Shown: piece after piece, positions 3,327-10,145 of the stretch
Numbering within the stretch: position 1 is the stretch's first letter
How the letters are laid out: each line of letters opens with the position of its first letter
NCBI GenBank assembly: GCA_027037055.1
Contig: JALWBR010000019.1
Coordinates: 1 to 32,234, forward strand
Source of the DNA: Aquificales bacterium
Lineage (GTDB): Bacteria; Aquificota; Aquificia; Aquificales; Aquificaceae
DNA length: 32,234 nucleotides
Direction of reading: 5' to 3'
Notes under the pieces: generated by a model
What the model saw: only the letters and a program-made list of their open reading frames with translations
Database searches by the model: none
What the model was told of the DNA's origin: nothing
Translations under genes and position numbers: made by a program

Positions 3327-3432
3327 ACACAAAGACATTCCGCAATTTTACCGAAATTTTGTAAAGGGTTTTAACATTGCTCAGGATATAAGAAAAACCT
3401 AATATACCAGTCTTATCAATGACTTACTCATT

Positions 3433-3448
3433 TGGCACGGTTTTTGCA
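3433..3448 (+). promoter_or_regulatory. Sigma-54 (-24/-12) promoter of the fibre operon
   Basis: The sequence TGGCACGGTTTTTGCA matches the RpoN consensus TGGCACG-N4-TTGCA at every defined base, with the exact GG-to-GC spacing. It lies in the only long intergenic gap of this strand (3278-3480). Transcription should begin about 12 bases after the GC, near 3459. That puts an in-frame ATG at 3451 upstream of the transcript and fixes the first gene start at 3481. Sigma-54 promoters need an AAA+ activator and ATP, so the operon should be switched on only under a specific signal. Confidence 0.87.
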
Positions 3449-3480
3449 TAATGTTTAGCATGGAAAAGGGAGGTGGAAGC

Positions 3481-3732
3481 ATGAGGAAGCTGGTTGCGGT
3501 AATAGGGATAGGGTTGGGAGTTACAACCTTTGTATCTGCGGACGATATGCTGTTTCCTCCCGACGGAGAAATGCCGGGTGATAGACGCCCGCCCGTTGAT
3601 ATACCCGTTATACCGGAAAGGCCCGATGTGCCGAGAGTGGTACCCGATATTCCGAACAGACCCGAGATACCCCGTCCTCCGAGACCCGGCAGACCGGAAA
3701 TTCCCCGTATTCCCTTTGATGAGATATCATAG
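3481..3732 (+). CDS. Small exported proline-rich protein
   Basis: First gene of the sigma-54 operon, 83 residues. Residues 1-20 are a Sec signal peptide (Arg-Lys, hydrophobic core, likely cut at VSA/DD). The mature part is about 63 residues and holds 19 prolines, many spaced two residues apart and separated by charged or aliphatic pairs (PDIPNRPEIPRPPRPGRP). This predicts an extended polyproline-II rod. It lacks the double-glycine-like motif and the Asn/Gln repeat of the later gene products. The start at 3481 follows GGGAGGTGG and lies downstream of the expected transcription start. I do not recognise a family; an anchor, spacer or chaperone role for the fibre is a guess. Confidence 0.75.
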   Translation: MRKLVAVIGIGLGVTTFVSADDMLFPPDGEMPGDRRPPVDIPVIPERPDVPRVVPDIPNRPEIPRPPRPGRPEIPRIPFDEIS

Positions 3733-3744
3733 GGGGCAATCATG

Positions 3745-3996
3745 ATGAAGAAGTTGATAGGTTTGTTTATGGTCCTTGGCGCGGGTGTTGCAATTGCGGG
3801 TGATAAGGGATTGAAGGAAGTTACCCTTGATGAGCTTGACGAAATAACTGGGGGCGGTGTAAGGGATCCTAAGATAATTCTTTGGGATGAAGCACACAGG
3901 AATACGGGTATCAATCAGGAAATAAACGGAAGTGCAAACGGTAACAGTGCCACTTACAGCACGAGTATCAGCAATAATGAGGTTAGCATGAGATGA
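3745..3996 (+). CDS. Small exported protein with double-glycine-type propeptide
   Basis: The product has 83 residues. A Sec signal peptide (MKKLIGLFMVLGAGVAIA) is followed by an acidic stretch ending in 'LDELDEITGGG', which has the form of a double-glycine leader (L-x-x-x-E-L-x-x-I-x-G-G). The remaining 43 residues are polar and Asn/Ser-rich (NQEINGSANGNSATYSTS) and resemble part of the repeat found in the next two products. Two adjacent ATGs are possible (3742, 3745); the second has the better spacing to AGGGGG at 3731-3736. It could be a minor fibre subunit or nucleator. The role is inferred from its neighbours. Confidence 0.75.
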   Translation: MKKLIGLFMVLGAGVAIAGDKGLKEVTLDELDEITGGGVRDPKIILWDEAHRNTGINQEINGSANGNSATYSTSISNNEVSMR

Positions 3997-4043
3997 GCTT
4001 GCAATCTTTGATAGCAATAAAAACTTTTAAAGGAGGTAGAATC

Positions 4044-4613
4044 ATGAAGAAGCATCTTCTACTCTCAGCACTGTTGGTGGGAGCTTTGAGTGTACCTGCG
4101 ATCTCTGGGGAAGTTCTTTCCGAGGAGGAGCTGGAAGAGGTAAGCGCTAAGGGTATCCAGACTGTCATCAACGACGAATACCTTGATGACGAGCAGTTCA
4201 ACAACAACGGATCTCTCCAGCTTGCCAATCAGGCACAGCAAGATATTGAAAATGTGGTTGTCAACAACAACGCCCAGTCCGCGGCAAACACGGGTGTAAA
4301 CCTCTTGGGCAACCTTGACACCAGCGGTGATATAGACGCTACCCAGACTAATGACCAGTATGCTGACAACTATGTAGCTTACACAGAGCAGTATGTTTTC
4401 ACAGAGGAACATGTTGATGATGAACAGTACAATAACAATGCTTCCGTACAGCTCATAAATGAGGCTCAGGAGTTTGCTAATGCTGTAGCTGCGGTCAACA
4501 GCGCCCAGTCATCCTCAAACCTCGGTCTTAACGCGGTCGGTAACCTCGCTACCGCTACAAGCATAACCACACACCAGACCAACGACCAGACAGCTTACAA
4601 CGATGTATTCTAA
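4044..4613 (+). CDS. Repeat protein, probable major subunit of a Fap-like fibre
   Basis: The product has 189 residues. The start at 4044 is set by AAAGGAGG and a normal signal peptide (cut near AIS/GE); an upstream in-frame ATG at 3993 has no ribosome-binding site. An acidic segment (LSEEELEEVSAKG) follows, then two imperfect repeats of about 77 residues. Each repeat runs from 'DDEQ(F/Y)NNN' through 'AQ' and 'N(T/L)G(V/L)N' to 'QTNDQ' (residues 101-105 and 178-182). After residue 37 there is no Lys, Arg, Cys or Pro, so the mature chain is strongly acidic and polar, like amyloid subunits. Asn is coded AAC in about 18 of 25 cases, against about 23 of 71 in the next gene, which suggests high expression. 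It resembles FapB/FapC of Pseudomonas in organisation; direct homology is unproven. Confidence 0.8.
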   Translation: MKKHLLLSALLVGALSVPAISGEVLSEEELEEVSAKGIQTVINDEYLDDEQFNNNGSLQLANQAQQDIENVVVNNNAQSAANTGVNLLGNLDTSGDIDATQTNDQYADNYVAYTEQYVFTEEHVDDEQYNNNASVQLINEAQEFANAVAAVNSAQSSSNLGLNAVGNLATATSITTHQTNDQTAYNDVF

Positions 4614-4639
4614 ACGGAGGGAAAAAGAAAAAGAAAAGC

Positions 4640-4664
4640 CGGAAGGGGGCTTTCCTCCCTTCCG
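4640..4664 (+). other. Intra-operon stem-loop after the probable major-subunit gene
   Basis: CGGAAGGG and CCCTTCCG form a perfect 8-base-pair stem, extendable by G-U and G-C to 10 pairs with a CTTTC loop. It lies 27 bases after the stop at 4613 and 26 bases before the next start. No U-tract follows, so a full terminator is unlikely. A stem at this place could protect the upstream mRNA from 3' decay and so raise the amount of the major subunit relative to the later genes. Confidence 0.6.
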
Positions 4665-4689
4665 TCCCTAATAATATAGGGGGAATGTG

Positions 4690-6048
4690 ATGAAAAGGCA
4701 AGTGTTAAATTTAACACTGCTTACTGCTCTGCTGACGCCCATCGCCGTGGGAATGGAAATAATCTCCGACGAGGAGCTTGATGATGTGAGCGGTGGACAG
4801 GTTCAGCAGATAATAAACGGCGGTAATATTAATGCTCATCAGGATAATGATAATGGTTCGGTGGTCCTTCATGGTAATGTTCAGCGCTATGCACCGAATG
4901 TAATTAATGTTGCAGCGTCTGTGGATAATGTGGCTACAAACATTGCTAATGTTTCAGGAACAAATGTAAATGTAATACAGACTAACAATCAGTGTGGAAA
5001 TAATACTGTGCACAGGGAACATCAGGAAATCTTTAACGGCGGAGATCTAAATGATACTCAGGATAATCAAAATGCTTCTGTGCTTATAACAGAGAATGTT
5101 CAAAGAAATGGTAATGCTATCTATACGGTGAATGCTGCCGTATCAGGTGTTGGTGTGGCTACCAATATTGCCACTGTAACAGCGCCTGGTGGTATTGCTG
5201 ATGTTGACCAAACTAATGAGCAACACACGGAAAATAATGTTGCCCTGAATGATATTGATACCTTGAACCCATCTATGGGATGCGGAGGCAAAGATAGGGA
5301 AGGTTGTCAATATGTTGAAAATGCTGGAGATAATAGTGGTGGTTACCAAAGGAACAGTCAGGGATCTGTATACATATCGGATGATGCTCAAAGTGAAAGG
5401 GATAGCCTTAATCTTATTAACATCGCCATTTCCTCTGTGAATTCAGGCATCAACATTGCTGATGTACGGGATCCAACGGATACAGCGATTATAGATCAAA
5501 GCAACGTTCAGGATGCGGCAAACAATGTTGCTGCGGGAAGCATCAATGAAGATTATGAATTTAGGCAGGAAATAAACAACTTAGGACCTACAGGTCCACA
5601 AGATAATAACAACCTTTCCGTTTTCATCACAGGGAATGCTCAAAACTCTGCTTCTGGAATTATTCTTGTAAATGGCGCCGCCAGCGCCATTAATGCGGGT
5701 GTAAATATAGCTAACGCAACCACAACGAACGATATAACGGTGAATCAAAGCAATGAACAGGCTGCGTGTAACTGGGTGCAAACGGATCATCCGCAGTATG
5801 TTAACAACAGCGGTCCTTTATTAGGTCCTCAGCGTAATAACAACGGGTCGGTTATACCCAGTGGGTCACCTACGTTTCTTGCAATTGTGAACACTACACT
5901 TTCCGCTGTAAATGAAGCTGTAAATATAGCAAGTGCTACTTGTACTGGAGCGGGTTGCTCTATTACTATTAATCAAACGAATACACAAAATGCAACCAAT
6001 GTTTTGGGCGCGAGTACAACCAATCCGGGTTGTGTCGCGTGTCCATAA
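4690..6048 (+). CDS. Large five-repeat Asn/Gln-rich exported fibre protein with C-terminal CxxC
   Basis: The product has 452 residues from ATG 4690 (AGGGGG 6 bases before it; an in-frame GTG lies directly upstream). A signal peptide ends near AVG/ME, followed by 'IISDEELDDVSGG', a double-glycine-type motif. Then come five repeats of roughly 75-95 residues, each closed by Q(T/S)NxQ near residues 97, 174, 270, 353 and 429. A typical unit has a 'QDN.N.SV.I..NAQ' strand region, 'VN.A.S.VN.G.NIA', and 'I.QTN.Q.A.N.V'. The chain ends with Cys-Val-Ala-Cys-Pro; a C-terminal CxxC is also described for FapC. Other cysteines sit between repeats. It may be a second subunit, a tip or a surface anchor. Confidence 0.8.
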   Translation: MKRQVLNLTLLTALLTPIAVGMEIISDEELDDVSGGQVQQIINGGNINAHQDNDNGSVVLHGNVQRYAPNVINVAASVDNVATNIANVSGTNVNVIQTNNQCGNNTVHREHQEIFNGGDLNDTQDNQNASVLITENVQRNGNAIYTVNAAVSGVGVATNIATVTAPGGIADVDQTNEQHTENNVALNDIDTLNPSMGCGGKDREGCQYVENAGDNSGGYQRNSQGSVYISDDAQSERDSLNLINIAISSVNSGINIADVRDPTDTAIIDQSNVQDAANNVAAGSINEDYEFRQEINNLGPTGPQDNNNLSVFITGNAQNSASGIILVNGAASAINAGVNIANATTTNDITVNQSNEQAACNWVQTDHPQYVNNSGPLLGPQRNNNGSVIPSGSPTFLAIVNTTLSAVNEAVNIASATCTGAGCSITINQTNTQNATNVLGASTTNPGCVACP

Positions 6049-6062
6049 GGGGGTGAACGGAA

Positions 6063-6407
6063 ATGAAAAAGTTGATAGCTGTACTGCTTGCGGTAAGTTC
6101 CTTATCCGCGGGTATGGAGATAATAGGTGACAGGGAACTGGAAGAGGTGTACGCAGGTAACATATACTATTCGGATATAGTTTATAAGACTGCAAGCGGT
6201 GGAAGCGGTTTGGGAGGACCTTACGATCTTGTCAACTCCGTATTCATAGACGGCAATGCTCAACAGAACTCCTTTGCTCCCATCAATGCTGCCAACTCCG
6301 CGGTGAGCCAAGCCATCAACCTCGTCATCATTATGGGTGATGTAAACGGGAATGTGGATATAGACTTCAATAACAATCTGAACAGCAACTTAAGCATAGT
6401 ACAGTGA
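6063..6407 (+). CDS. Small single-repeat exported fibre protein
   Basis: The product has 114 residues and a strong ribosome-binding site (AAGGGGG) before ATG 6063. The signal peptide (MKKLIAVLLAVSSLSAG) is followed by 'MEIIGDRELEEVYAG', nearly the same propeptide as in the preceding product but ending Ala-Gly instead of Gly-Gly. The mature part carries one repeat unit ('NSVFIDGNAQQNS', 'INAANSAVSQAINL', then an Asn-rich end). A minor subunit, capping protein or nucleator would fit. The C39 gene begins 11 bases after its stop. Confidence 0.75.
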   Translation: MKKLIAVLLAVSSLSAGMEIIGDRELEEVYAGNIYYSDIVYKTASGGSGLGGPYDLVNSVFIDGNAQQNSFAPINAANSAVSQAINLVIIMGDVNGNVDIDFNNNLNSNLSIVQ

Positions 6408-6418
6408 GGAGGATGGGC

Positions 6419-7168
6419 GTGGTAAGGCTTGTCCTCCTGTCCCTTCTCCTTTTTACATTATCCTTAGCCCATGATTTCGGTTTCGGTGAATCCGACGAAT
6501 GGGAAGAGATAGAGAAGTATGAAAAGGCAGAGGGCAAGGAGGCGATTGTAAGGGTAATTTCAGGCGATGGGTTTTCTTATGTAACAAAGGTAAAGAAACC
6601 CCAATCTTATCTTAAGGAAAAGCACCTTGTAAGACAGAAACTTGATTTTAGTTGCGGTTCCGCTGCTGTAGCGACCATATTCAATTATTATCTCGGCGAA
6701 CATGTAACCGAGAAGGATGTTATAGAAGGATTGTTCAAGGTCGGAAATGTGAAAAAGATTATAAAAAGAAAGGCTTTTTCCCTTCTGGATATTAAGAAAT
6801 TTGCGGAATATAAGGGATACAAGGCTGTCGGTTACAGAACGGATGTGAAGGGTTTGGTTAAGCTCGGCAAACCTGCCATAGTTACACTTGAGTTGGGTAA
6901 CTACAAACATTTTGTCGTATTCAGGGGAGTAAGGAAAGGAAGGGTATTCTTGGCGGATCCCGCCCTCGGTAATACAATACTTTCCGTGGAAGAATTTGAA
7001 CGCATGTGGTATAAAAACATAGCCCTTGTTATAGAACCAAAAGAGGAGCCTAAGGAAAACAGGCTCGCTATAACCGATGAGGATATGCAGTGGGTGCAGG
7101 AAGAGAAAGTAAGACAATATATAGGATCTTATGATATAATTTCCCCCAAATTACCTATTGACTTTTAA
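6419..7168 (+). CDS. Periplasmic C39-family cysteine peptidase (FapD-like)
   Basis: C39 peptidases cleave after double-glycine leaders. Usually they are fused to ABC exporters; this one is free-standing with its own signal peptide, as FapD is in Pseudomonas. I chose GTG 6419 because GAGGAGG (6406-6412) lies 6 bases before it; GTG 6404 and ATG 6413 are alternatives. The product has 249 residues. With this start, the oxyanion Gln73 and nucleophile Cys79 lie in 'QKLDFSCGSAA', His164 in 'YKHFVVF' and Asp180 in 'LADPALGN', so the catalytic set looks complete. No membrane or ATPase domain is attached. The four preceding genes encode plausible substrates carrying the double-glycine-like motif or a variant of it. 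Confidence 0.85.
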   Translation: MVRLVLLSLLLFTLSLAHDFGFGESDEWEEIEKYEKAEGKEAIVRVISGDGFSYVTKVKKPQSYLKEKHLVRQKLDFSCGSAAVATIFNYYLGEHVTEKDVIEGLFKVGNVKKIIKRKAFSLLDIKKFAEYKGYKAVGYRTDVKGLVKLGKPAIVTLELGNYKHFVVFRGVRKGRVFLADPALGNTILSVEEFERMWYKNIALVIEPKEEPKENRLAITDEDMQWVQEEKVRQYIGSYDIISPKLPIDF

Positions 7169-7174
7169 AAGATA

Positions 7175-8197
7175 ATGAAAAAGCTATGCCTTATTCTTAT
7201 CATAGTTCTTTCCTCAGTTTATGTATTTGCGGAAGAGAAATCCCTTGAGGAAAGGGCAAGAGAAGCCCTGCAGGAGCAAACCGCTCAACCCGAAGAGATC
7301 CTCACGATATTTGAAAGGGATTATGTTCTTGTAAAAAGGTGCAGATTTGAGATGGAGGAGATATTTTCCTATGTCTTCTATTCCGCTAATAGTATATACC
7401 TTGAGAGTTTTGCTATACTTGATCCAGTTTTTCTTACCCTCGGCGAATTCGGTGTGGAGAGGGTAAGAAGGAGTATATTTACAAATCTTATAAATCTTCG
7501 CTACGGTTTGAGGGACTATCTTCAGCTTGATGTGGTGATACCTTATATATACAGGCATGATAGGATGGTTGTTGTTGAAACGGCAACTGAAAAGAGTATT
7601 CAGACTGCCAACATAGGCGACATAACCTTCAGCCTTACCTATCAACCAGTAAGAGAAGGAAGGGTAAAGCCCGCGGTGTTAACAAGCCTCGGATTTAAAA
7701 CAAAAACGGGTATAAGTCCTTTCCTCATAGATCCGGTGGAAGGCATACCTACAGGTAGCGGTTATTATTCCCTGAAGCTCGGATTTACTTTTATAAAGTC
7801 GGTTGATCCCGCCGTTATATTTGCAAGCCTTGCTTATGCCTATAACATTAAGGAAACCGGTTTGGATACAGCGGTTATCACAGAACAGGAGGTTTACAGA
7901 TTTCAAGCTGTTGATCCGGGTGATACTATAAGTGCGAGCCTTGGCATAAGCTATGCTATAACCTATAATTTTTCCATAAGCTTTCAGCTTTTGCAGGACT
8001 ATACCATGGATACATATATATGGGTTAACGGAGAAAAGAGGAGATCAATTAACTCTTCCCTGAATCTGGGTATGTTTAAGTTTAATGCTGGCTGGGCTTT
8101 TTCTTATAGGACTGGGCTTAATCTCGGGGTTGCCATAGGTTTGACCGAGGATTCCCCCGACTACTCTTTGGAGGTAAGGGTACCTATAAGGTTTTGA
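7175..8197 (+). CDS. Outer-membrane beta-barrel, probable fibre-subunit exporter (FapF-like)
   Basis: The product has 340 residues. After a signal peptide (cut near VFA/EE) there is a helical, Glu/Gln-rich stretch (about residues 20-60), then alternating hydrophobic/polar strands with frequent aromatic residues. It ends in '...VRVPIRF'; the terminal Phe is a typical BAM-recognised beta-signal. The barrel region begins like meta-pathway/'transporter' porins ('YGLRDYLQLDVVIPYIY'). FapF, the amyloid exporter of Pseudomonas, likewise has an N-terminal helical plug before its barrel. It starts 6 bases after the peptidase gene, and its stop abuts the next ATG. The barrel assignment is firm; the export role rests on context. 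Confidence 0.78.
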   Translation: MKKLCLILIIVLSSVYVFAEEKSLEERAREALQEQTAQPEEILTIFERDYVLVKRCRFEMEEIFSYVFYSANSIYLESFAILDPVFLTLGEFGVERVRRSIFTNLINLRYGLRDYLQLDVVIPYIYRHDRMVVVETATEKSIQTANIGDITFSLTYQPVREGRVKPAVLTSLGFKTKTGISPFLIDPVEGIPTGSGYYSLKLGFTFIKSVDPAVIFASLAYAYNIKETGLDTAVITEQEVYRFQAVDPGDTISASLGISYAITYNFSISFQLLQDYTMDTYIWVNGEKRRSINSSLNLGMFKFNAGWAFSYRTGLNLGVAIGLTEDSPDYSLEVRVPIRF

Positions 8198-8959
8198 ATG
8201 AGTGGGATAGTTGAGATAGTTGACCTTACAAAATATATAAATGGAAGGTTGATCCTTGAGAATGTAACCTTTAATGTGGAGAAGGGGGAGATATTTACCA
8301 TCATAGGTGGGAGCGGAAGCGGAAAAACTTCAATTACAAAACACATAGTGGGGTTATGGAAGCCGACGAAGGGCTATGTGAAGGTATTTGGTAAAGATGT
8401 TGCAAGTATGTCTTTTATAGAGATAGAGGAGCTAAGAAAAAATATAGGCTATGTTTTTCAGCAAGGTGCCCTTTTTGATAGTTTAACAGTATGGGAAAAT
8501 GTGGGTTTTTTCTTCCTTGAGCATGAAGATATGGAGGAGACGGAAATAAAAAATATAGTGAAGGAGAAGCTTAAGCTCGTTAACCTCGGCGAAGAGGTTA
8601 TGGATCTGCTCCCTTCCGAACTTTCGGGGGGTATGAGGAAAAGGGTTGCCATTGCAAGGGCTATAGCTACAAATCCACAACTTATTATATATGATGAGCC
8701 TACATCTGGACTTGACCCCATAACGAGCAGGGTTATAGATGATCTTATAGTAAGTTTGAGGGACAAGACTGGAACCACATCAATTGTGGTAACCCACGAT
8801 ATGGTTTCCGCATTTAGGATATCGGACAGGATGCTCATACTTAACAAAGGCAGAGTTGTTCAGATAGGTACACCTTCGGAGATTATGAAGTCCGATATTC
8901 CTTTTGTTAGGGATTTCATAAAGAAAGGATTGGGAGATGTAAGCCTCAGGACCTCATAA
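8198..8959 (+). CDS. mlaF: ABC transporter ATPase of the MlaF type
   Basis: The product has 253 residues. It has Walker A 'GGSGSGKT', a Q-loop ('YVFQQGALFDSLTVWENV', with the 'FQ.GALFDS.TV..NV' stretch typical of MlaF/Ttg2A), the signature 'LSGGMRKRVAIARA', Walker B 'LIIYDEPTSGLDP' and the switch His in 'VVTHD'. In the Mla system this ATPase works with permease MlaE and substrate-binding MlaD to move phospholipids between the membranes. No mlaE or mlaD is present here; the start codon directly follows the barrel stop. It probably works with a permease encoded elsewhere and is co-transcribed with the fibre operon. The 3' end overlaps the convergent cfa gene by 14 bases. Confidence 0.85.
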   Translation: MSGIVEIVDLTKYINGRLILENVTFNVEKGEIFTIIGGSGSGKTSITKHIVGLWKPTKGYVKVFGKDVASMSFIEIEELRKNIGYVFQQGALFDSLTVWENVGFFFLEHEDMEETEIKNIVKEKLKLVNLGEEVMDLLPSELSGGMRKRVAIARAIATNPQLIIYDEPTSGLDPITSRVIDDLIVSLRDKTGTTSIVVTHDMVSAFRISDRMLILNKGRVVQIGTPSEIMKSDIPFVRDFIKKGLGDVSLRTS

Positions 8960-10145
8960 GATTTTCCCCGAAAATTCTTCTCATCACGGGGTATGAGTTG
9001 TTTACCCCCTTGGACATAAGGATCTGGAAAAGATGGTTACTTCCCACAAGAAATGACACACTTGCACTTACGAGATAAAGGTGCCACATCCTAACGAAGG
9101 CCTTTCCGAATCTTTCTTCAAAGATACTCTTTTTGGATAAAAACCTTTTCTGCCACTCTTTCAGTGTAAGGTAATAGTGTACTCTCCAGTCATCAATGTC
9201 TATAAGATTGAAACCCGCTTCCGTCATTGCGGTTAATATTTCCTGTAGCCCTGGAAGATAACCGCCCGGAAATATCCTTTTTCTTATCCACCTGCTTTGG
9301 GATGAGGGAACCTGTTTACCTATTGTGTGAAGAAGGAAAATAGCTCCTTCTTCCGCCACATCTTTAACAACCTTAAAAAATCTCCTTATATTTCTTTTAC
9401 CTACATGTTCAAACATGCCGACGGAAACTATCTTGTTGAACTTCATTCCGCTTGAAGAAAGATCATTGTAATGCATAAGGTAAACATTTACCCTGTTTTC
9501 AAGCTTTCTTCTTTTAATCTCTTCCTGTATGAACTTATATTGATTTTCCGAAAGGGTTATACCCGTCGCATTTACACCGTACTTTTCCGACGCTTCAATG
9601 ATAAGGGATCCCCATCCGCATCCTATATCAAGTAGCCTTTCACCCTCGGTGAGCCTAAGCTTTTCGTATATTATTTCCCTTTTCTTTGATTGGGCTTCTT
9701 CCAATGACATATTGGGATTTTCAAAGAAGGCGCAGGAGTATGTCATGCTTTTGTCAAGCCATTCCCTGTAGAAATCATCATCAATGTCATAATGGTACTC
9801 TATATTTTCCGCTTCTTCCTTCATATTTTGGGGTTTCAATGAGGAGAAGAATACACCTATACCGTACAGTAAACGGCTTAATAGGGAGGCTTTACCCGAG
9901 CTTATTCCGTACTTAATAACCTCTTCAAGACTTCCTTCAACTTCTATGTTTCCTTTCATATAGTTTTCACAGAAACCCATTTCCTTGTCTATTAAACACT
10001 CAAGAAGTGCTTTCCATGTTTTAAATACTAAGGTTGTATCTGAATGCATATCCCATGTTTCACCCGAAGGAAGTCTTACATTAAAAGGCACATCAAAGTT
10101 CTTAAGTACATTCCGCAGGATAACCTTCCCTATGACTATGTTCAT
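8946..10145 (-). CDS. cfa: Cyclopropane-fatty-acyl-phospholipid synthase family methyltransferase
   Basis: The product has 399 residues. Members transfer the SAM methylene to cis double bonds of membrane phospholipid acyl chains. The N-terminal lipid-binding domain (about 1-110) leads to a Rossmann methyltransferase domain with motif I 'LLDIGCGWGSL', the 'YHYD' and 'MTYSCAFFENP' active-site loops, 'EHVGKRN' and 'HTIGKQ' segments, all normal for CfaA. The gene is convergent with mlaF and overlaps its end. A TATAAT-like -10 lies about 24 bases upstream of the ATG. Related enzymes can methylate other lipids, so the exact product is less certain than the family. Confidence 0.93.
   Translation of the reverse strand: MNIVIGKVILRNVLKNFDVPFNVRLPSGETWDMHSDTTLVFKTWKALLECLIDKEMGFCENYMKGNIEVEGSLEEVIKYGISSGKASLLSRLLYGIGVFFSSLKPQNMKEEAENIEYHYDIDDDFYREWLDKSMTYSCAFFENPNMSLEEAQSKKREIIYEKLRLTEGERLLDIGCGWGSLIIEASEKYGVNATGITLSENQYKFIQEEIKRRKLENRVNVYLMHYNDLSSSGMKFNKIVSVGMFEHVGKRNIRRFFKVVKDVAEEGAIFLLHTIGKQVPSSQSRWIRKRIFPGGYLPGLQEILTAMTEAGFNLIDIDDWRVHYYLTLKEWQKRFLSKKSIFEERFGKAFVRMWHLYLVSASVSFLVGSNHLFQILMSKGVNNSYPVMRRIFGENLMRS

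Follow-up and report, generated by a model that had tools for sequence, protein, structure and literature searches.

A sigma-54-preceded operon of an Aquificales bacterium encoding a probable Fap/Fil-like outer-membrane export system with its own fibre subunits

Operon layout, promoter and host

The 32,234-nucleotide stretch of DNA analysed here (positions 1 to 32,234 of contig JALWBR010000019.1, assembly GCA_027037055.1, Aquificales bacterium), referred to as the window at its full length, carries an operon whose genes encode five small exported proteins together with a periplasmic C39 peptidase and a barrel of the outer membrane. All but one of the five bear a double-glycine-type leader directly after the Sec signal. 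The operon likely specifies a Fap/Fil-like system of two components for export across the outer membrane, together with fibre subunits of its own. Seven open reading frames (ORFs) on one strand make up the operon (3451-8197), with gaps of 9, 47, 76, 14, -4 and 6 bases between them. The following features were assigned:

3432-3448, + strand: sigma-54 (-24/-12) promoter TTGGCACGGTTTTTGCA, agreeing with the consensus at 13 of 13 positions
3481..3732, + strand: small exported proline-rich protein without a double-glycine leader, conserved in genus g1 (loci L054, L089)
3742..3996, + strand: exported protein of 84 amino acids with Sec signal and leader, recognised by the leader profile
3820-3855, + strand: leader VTLDELDEITGG of the 3742 gene (leader profile, E 1.3e-9)
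4044..4613, + strand: repeat subunit of 189 amino acids with Sec signal, leader and two glutamine/asparagine (Q/N)-rich repeats (repeat profile, 3.6e-37)
4116-4151, + strand: leader LSEEELEEVSAK of the 4044 gene (leader profile, E 4.2e-11)
4690..6048, + strand: major repeat subunit of 452 amino acids with Sec signal, leader and five Q/N-rich repeats (repeat profile, 1e-79)
4762-4797, + strand: leader ISDEELDDVSGG of the 4690 gene (leader profile, E 4.0e-13)
6063..6407, + strand: minor subunit of 114 amino acids with Sec signal and leader; homologues adjoin the C39 gene in most lineages
6123-6158, + strand: leader IGDRELEEVYAG of the 6063 gene (leader profile, E 3.0e-11)
6404..7168, + strand: periplasmic C39 peptidase, FilB/FapD-like by Pfam and NCBIfam matches, its signal peptide judged from the sequence
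6653-6655, 6908-6910 and 6956-6958, + strand: catalytic Cys84, His169 and Asp185 of the peptidase, with the oxyanion Gln78 at 6635-6637
7175..8197, + strand: FapF/FilC-like outer-membrane barrel by NCBIfam and PDB matches, without a long N-terminal coiled coil

Besides this promoter, the 1.67 Mb genome contains two further perfect sigma-54 sites and none that fits the reversed control pattern; it also has an rpoN gene. Most Aquificota relatives with the C39 and barrel genes also have a sigma-54-like site 5' of the operon, which is consistent with the operon being driven by sigma-54. Since transcription should begin about 12 bases beyond the -12 element, the expected transcription start lies past the ATG at 3451, and the first gene therefore probably starts at the ATG at 3481.

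The first-pass annotation of this locus had described a sigma-54 promoter and seven same-strand genes with gaps of 76 bases or less, whose products were five small exported proteins, a C39 peptidase with signal peptide and catalytic residues, and an outer-membrane barrel, and all of this was confirmed. Its proline-rich first gene is present, only with the probable later start. Two of the three repeat proteins that it had listed have clear repeats (4044 and 4690), and the third, the 6063 product, holds a single divergent partial copy (E 5e-4). A thermophilic host had also been guessed, soundly so, because the genome encodes a full-length reverse gyrase. The four leaders, which tie the subunits to the protease, are a feature beyond that annotation.

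The double-glycine-type leader and the export pair

The leaders follow the consensus [VIL]SDEELDEV-x-[AG][QG], which fits the rule LSX2ELX2IXGG of the class II bacteriocin leaders, a class of C39 peptidase substrates (PMC7494827). Among 658 ORFs (110,528 amino acids) from the window and the loci of 22 relatives, a regular expression for the 12-residue leader gave 42 matches, all of them in operon subunits just after the Sec signal and none elsewhere. Within the 43 distinct leaders collected from Aquificota, the preferred residues are V/I/L at position -12, S at -11, E at -8, L at -7, V/I at -4, A/G at -2 and Q/G at -1; the four leaders of the window have G, K, G and G at position -1. No paper on a Sec-plus-double-glycine leader of Fap-type subunits was found in a literature search from which subscription journals were mostly absent.

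The distribution of the leader follows that of the export genes. Strong C39 matches (E<1e-43) and strong barrel matches (E<1e-38) occur in an identical set of 23 of the 136 Aquificota genomes (Fisher 1.6e-26, uncorrected for genome relatedness), and the C39 and barrel neighbourhood, for which the first annotation had proposed a search, is conserved in these 23 genomes. When whole genomes were searched, the leader profile matched at E<1e-7 in all 23 of these genomes and in one other (G074), with no match at E<1e-3 in the other 112 Aquificota genomes (Fisher 4e-25 for co-occurrence with the pair, likewise without a correction for kinship). With the threshold relaxed to E<=10, a search of the window genome with this profile retrieved the four operon genes plus a single paralogue of the 4044 subunit, unlinked to them, and nothing else. 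The gene order in Aquificota is C39 followed by the barrel, and in most genomes the subunit genes precede the C39 gene. In one genome (G075) a distance of more than 120 kb separates the subunit genes from those for the C39 and the barrel, and the subunit genes still carry the leader and a sigma-54-like site.

The orphan 4044 paralogue (L082, G000:C53, reverse strand, oriented positions 4720-5289) carries the leader, and a sigma-54-like site precedes it by about 55 bases; the same unlinked arrangement is seen in G061 (L085).

The C39 peptidase matches Pfam PF03412 (4.8e-21), the PDB entry 6mpz (4.3e-9) and, in NCBIfam, FilB (2e-53) and FapD (NF058616, 1.9e-33), the FilB score being the higher and the FapD score reaching 115.7 bits against an equivalog cut-off of 330. 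An alignment of 10 diverse C39 homologues, among them Aeromonas FapD, Acinetobacter FilB and homologues from Cupriavidus, Croceicoccus, Tistrella and Deinococcus, shows no variation at Gln78, Cys84, His169 and Asp185. The barrel matches FapF (NF058560, 2.8e-41) and FilC (4e-40) in NCBIfam and the FapF structure 5o67 in the PDB (2.7e-29). Because the four NCBIfam scores (FapD, FilB, FapF and FilC) all fall below the curated cut-offs, the peptidase and the barrel are relatives and not orthologues by the NCBIfam standard.

Subunits, known systems and alternative readings

The repeats of the 4044 and 4690 products form one family with the pattern Q-D-N-N-N-N-S-V-Q-L-N-D-x-A-Q ... N-x-A-x-S-A-x-N-x-G-x-N ... 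Q-T-N-x-Q-x-A-x-N, and repeat proteins in relatives reach up to 1,091 residues. Glutamine and asparagine together make up 22-27% of the repeat and minor subunits in their mature form. In the AlphaFold model of the major subunit, each repeat is predicted to form two long beta strands, with a predicted local distance difference test score (pLDDT) of about 76-93, joined by disordered linkers. These modelled strands speak against the repeats being helical; amyloid is not thereby shown, and the amyloid nature of the fibre is plausible but unproven. In the Foldseek search of this model, CsgA and FapC appeared at ranks 2 and 3 and were discounted, with E about 1 and template modelling (TM) scores below 0.16. 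Homology of the repeats to FapB and FapC was rejected as well: hmmsearch of the Aeromonas proteins did no better than 100 shuffles per protein, and hhalign returned a probability of 0.8%.

Two further observations concern the subunit genes of relatives. At one locus (L088, G079:C2:984000-1003000) a module of long-repeat and minor subunit, judged by leader matches, stands three times in tandem 5' of a single C39 and barrel pair. In many relatives, a conserved small exported protein (SFGDGG...) without a Pfam match is encoded between the repeat and minor subunits (L039, 7708-8040, with homologues in g3 and f2), and none was seen in the window's genus.

The first-pass annotation had read the locus as a distant Fap-type amyloid secretion system with a different subunit set; the secretion machine of that reading is well supported, its amyloid part only plausible. 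The parallel to the fapABCDEF operons of Pseudomonas and Aeromonas lies in a homologous periplasmic C39 peptidase (FapD) and barrel (FapF) that are encoded in a single operon alongside exported repeat proteins rich in Q/N. In Aeromonas caviae, a genuine fap operon (FapC 1.2e-50, FapB 7.9e-22, FapD 2.8e-74, FapE 2.3e-12) encodes a FapE with the same kind of leader, LADGELAHLRGR. In contrast to Fap, the window operon has the leader on four of its five small exported proteins, the repeat subunits included, and lacks detectable homology to the FapB/FapC repeat (GN-x-G-N-x2-AG-x2-NQQ-x-N). None of the seven operon proteins matched the NCBIfam families FapA, FapB, FapC, FapE or FilA. The operon is not a member of Fap proper, because the repeat homology, the coiled coil of FapF and the FapA and FapE families were all looked for and not found. 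It probably works like Fap, with most of its subunits, and not a single accessory protein alone, bearing a second leader for the periplasmic peptidase of the operon. Fap machinery in another phylum is unsurprising, since co-localised fapD and fapF homologues were previously noted in five phyla beyond Proteobacteria (PMC6173800).

The Fil locus of Acinetobacter, a putative pilus system, is related in that the window C39 is closest to the FilB profile, the barrel is close to FilC, and FilA has a Sec signal followed by the leader MDDAALSAATGQ; it differs in that no comparable Q/N-rich repeat subunits were seen there, and the window operon is without FilE- or FilF-like genes. The nap island of Neisseria (PMC11798529) combines the NapP C39 with a FapF-like NapF, proposed to process and secrete GG-leader peptides, but its cargo consists of small cationic autolysis peptides and not of repeat fibre subunits. 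Class II bacteriocin export by peptidase-containing ATP-binding cassette (ABC) transporters (PCATs) shares the double-glycine leader rule and the peptidase family, the latter seen in the 6mpz match of the window C39; there, however, the C39 domain is cytosolic and fused to the transporter, whereas in the window the C39 stands alone as an exported enzyme and the leader comes after a Sec signal.

Similar leaders are also found on small exported proteins adjoining periplasmic C39 genes in Cupriavidus, Croceicoccus, Polymorphobacter, Photobacterium and Vibrio, with degenerate versions in Indioceanicola, all leaders outside Aquificota being read by eye without a statistical test. Periplasmic C39 genes stand beside Sec-signalled, leader-bearing, bacteriocin-like proteins on a small plasmid of Acinetobacter TR11 (L068), in Deinococcus (L069) and in Tistrella (L070), the latter two with a barrel gene nearby. 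A second, divergent system of Aquificota (L072, L073, L074 and L077, in G086:C46, G076, G074 and G073) consists of a leader-like exported small protein, a mini FapF-like barrel and a divergent C39, and its cargo is bacteriocin-like.

On the proposed route, the sigma-54 RNA polymerase would transcribe the operon from TTGGCACGGTTTTTGCA and Sec would export each subunit with loss of its signal peptide. The periplasmic C39 peptidase, with its catalytic residues and its co-occurrence with the leader motif, would then recognise and cut the double-glycine-type leader. The mature subunits, still unfolded, would leave through the barrel, as its homology to FapF suggests. Outside the cell, the Q/N-rich subunits would assemble into a beta-rich and probably amyloid-like fibre of the biofilm matrix, with the 4690 product as the presumed major and the 4044 product as the presumed minor subunit, and the 6063 product as a possible nucleator or anchor.

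Several results weigh against this route. All 16 Aquificota barrel homologues checked have no more than a short stretch from the signal peptide to the FERDYVL motif and lack the long coiled coil in the periplasm that is reported as indispensable for FapF in Pseudomonas (PMC6173795), and the AlphaFold model of the barrel, built from four close sequences, reached a pLDDT of 30. The major subunit model has a low overall pLDDT of 58.7 and no significant fold match in the PDB by Foldseek, so that the structure prediction proposed earlier yielded the strands but no structural relative, and the repeats match FapB and FapC no better than shuffled sequence does. Position -1 of the Aquificota leaders is Q in 24, G in 14, K in 4 and A in 1 of the 43; since most subunits carry Gln there and not Gly, cleavage at this position is an extrapolation. 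The proline-rich protein of the first gene has no leader, in one genome (G074) a leader protein occurs although no FapF-type barrel was detected, and kinship among the genomes inflates both Fisher p-values.

If the peptidase does not cut, the leader could be a docking tag that C39 binds before handing the unfolded subunits to the barrel, like the catalytically dead C39-like domains of some type 1 systems. Such non-cleaving domains are known (discussed in PMC5557850), and the frequent Gln at -1, together with Ala at -2 in 28 of the 43 leaders, would suit a tag. We nevertheless hold this to be unlikely: all four catalytic residues (Q, C, H and D) are unchanged across the 10 divergent homologues, mutation of the catalytic Cys of Pseudomonas FapD to Ala abolishes FapC secretion (Rouse et al. 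2017, PMC5557850), and FapE, leader-bearing in Aeromonas, was the one Fap protein of Pseudomonas found to be processed in full at its N-terminus (PMC5557850). A different doubt concerns only the product, which might be a non-amyloid surface layer or adhesive coat, such as a folded beta-solenoid or an S-layer-like protein, reached by the same transcription, export, cleavage and exit steps. Many of the insignificant Foldseek matches are beta-solenoid proteins, the repeats have no detectable sequence relation to FapB/FapC, and the related Fil system carries the annotation of a putative pilus system. Against these stand the high Q/N content, the short N/Q-anchored repeats and the passage of unfolded amyloid subunits through the FapF-type channel in Pseudomonas, and such a coat is regarded as a tentative possibility that is rather less probable than a fibre. 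It is very improbable that the operon makes bacteriocin-like or signalling peptides in the manner of the nap island. The bacteriocin-type leaders, the weak Lactococcin and lantibiotic leader matches in the Pfam search and the cargo of the second Aquificota system point that way; against it stand main products that are Q/N-rich repeat proteins with mature lengths of about 150 to 1,050 residues, the linkage of the genes to a cellulose synthase (see below) and the lack of a recognised immunity gene.

With Fap/Fil-like export of fibre subunits as the preferred reading, we lean somewhat towards a broader one, in which the two-part leader, Sec plus double glycine, would be a general address code of a widespread export pathway made up of a periplasmic C39 and a FapF-like barrel. 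Its cargo would comprise fibre subunits (Aquificota, Fil, FapE) and bacteriocin-like peptides (Deinococcus, Tistrella, the second Aquificota system, Nap). If this holds, the substrate of FapD in classical Fap would be the FapE leader, as judged from Aeromonas FapE and FapE-like proteins of Photobacterium and Acidithiobacillus. The Fap proteins were described as lacking canonical C39 sites and the FapD target was called unclear (Rouse et al. 2017, PMC5557850), and in a 2025 review FapD is still presumed to act on the N-terminus of FapE and on the periplasmic region of FapF (PMC12822426). The obvious leader on the subunits described here bears on the FapD substrate and its recognition rule. As the subunits carry it, a small enzyme and a few short peptides would allow a direct test of the C39 cleavage rule, which extends to FapE.

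Matrix context and neighbouring genes

A BcsA-like glycosyltransferase gene lies directly 3' of the barrel in 10 of 10 genomes of the sister genus (g3), with a sigma-54-like site just before it at most of these loci. At L048, the sole g3 locus tested with Pfam, the product of the BcsA-like gene contains a PilZ domain, and the next gene encodes a BcsS outer-membrane protein. BcsA orthologues (E<1e-230) are found in exactly the 14 operon-bearing genomes of the window's family, and the one in the window genome has a sigma-54 site, ATGGCACGGTTGTTGCT, 51 bases 5' of its start codon. This suggests a biofilm-matrix regulon in which the fibre and a cellulose-like polysaccharide come under joint sigma-54 control. 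In the window bacterium and the sister genus, the fibre would thus probably be co-regulated by sigma-54 with a PilZ-domain polysaccharide synthase of the cellulose type. Such an arrangement would put a fibre-plus-cellulose matrix under sigma-54 in a reverse-gyrase-bearing thermophile, with the repeat proteins as a potential source for thermostable fibre materials. In G075 (L035, oriented 8817-9704) a GGDEF diguanylate cyclase gene stands between the C39 and barrel genes.

Of the three perfect sigma-54 sites of the window genome, the two that do not belong to the operon (L083 and L084, G000:C17 and C45) precede multihaem cytochrome-like and uroporphyrin methyltransferase-like genes, as identified by eye. 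An ABC-transporter ATPase gene (8198-8959, Mla-like by eye) starts right behind the stop codon of the barrel gene and may share a transcript with the operon; the same arrangement is present in G059.

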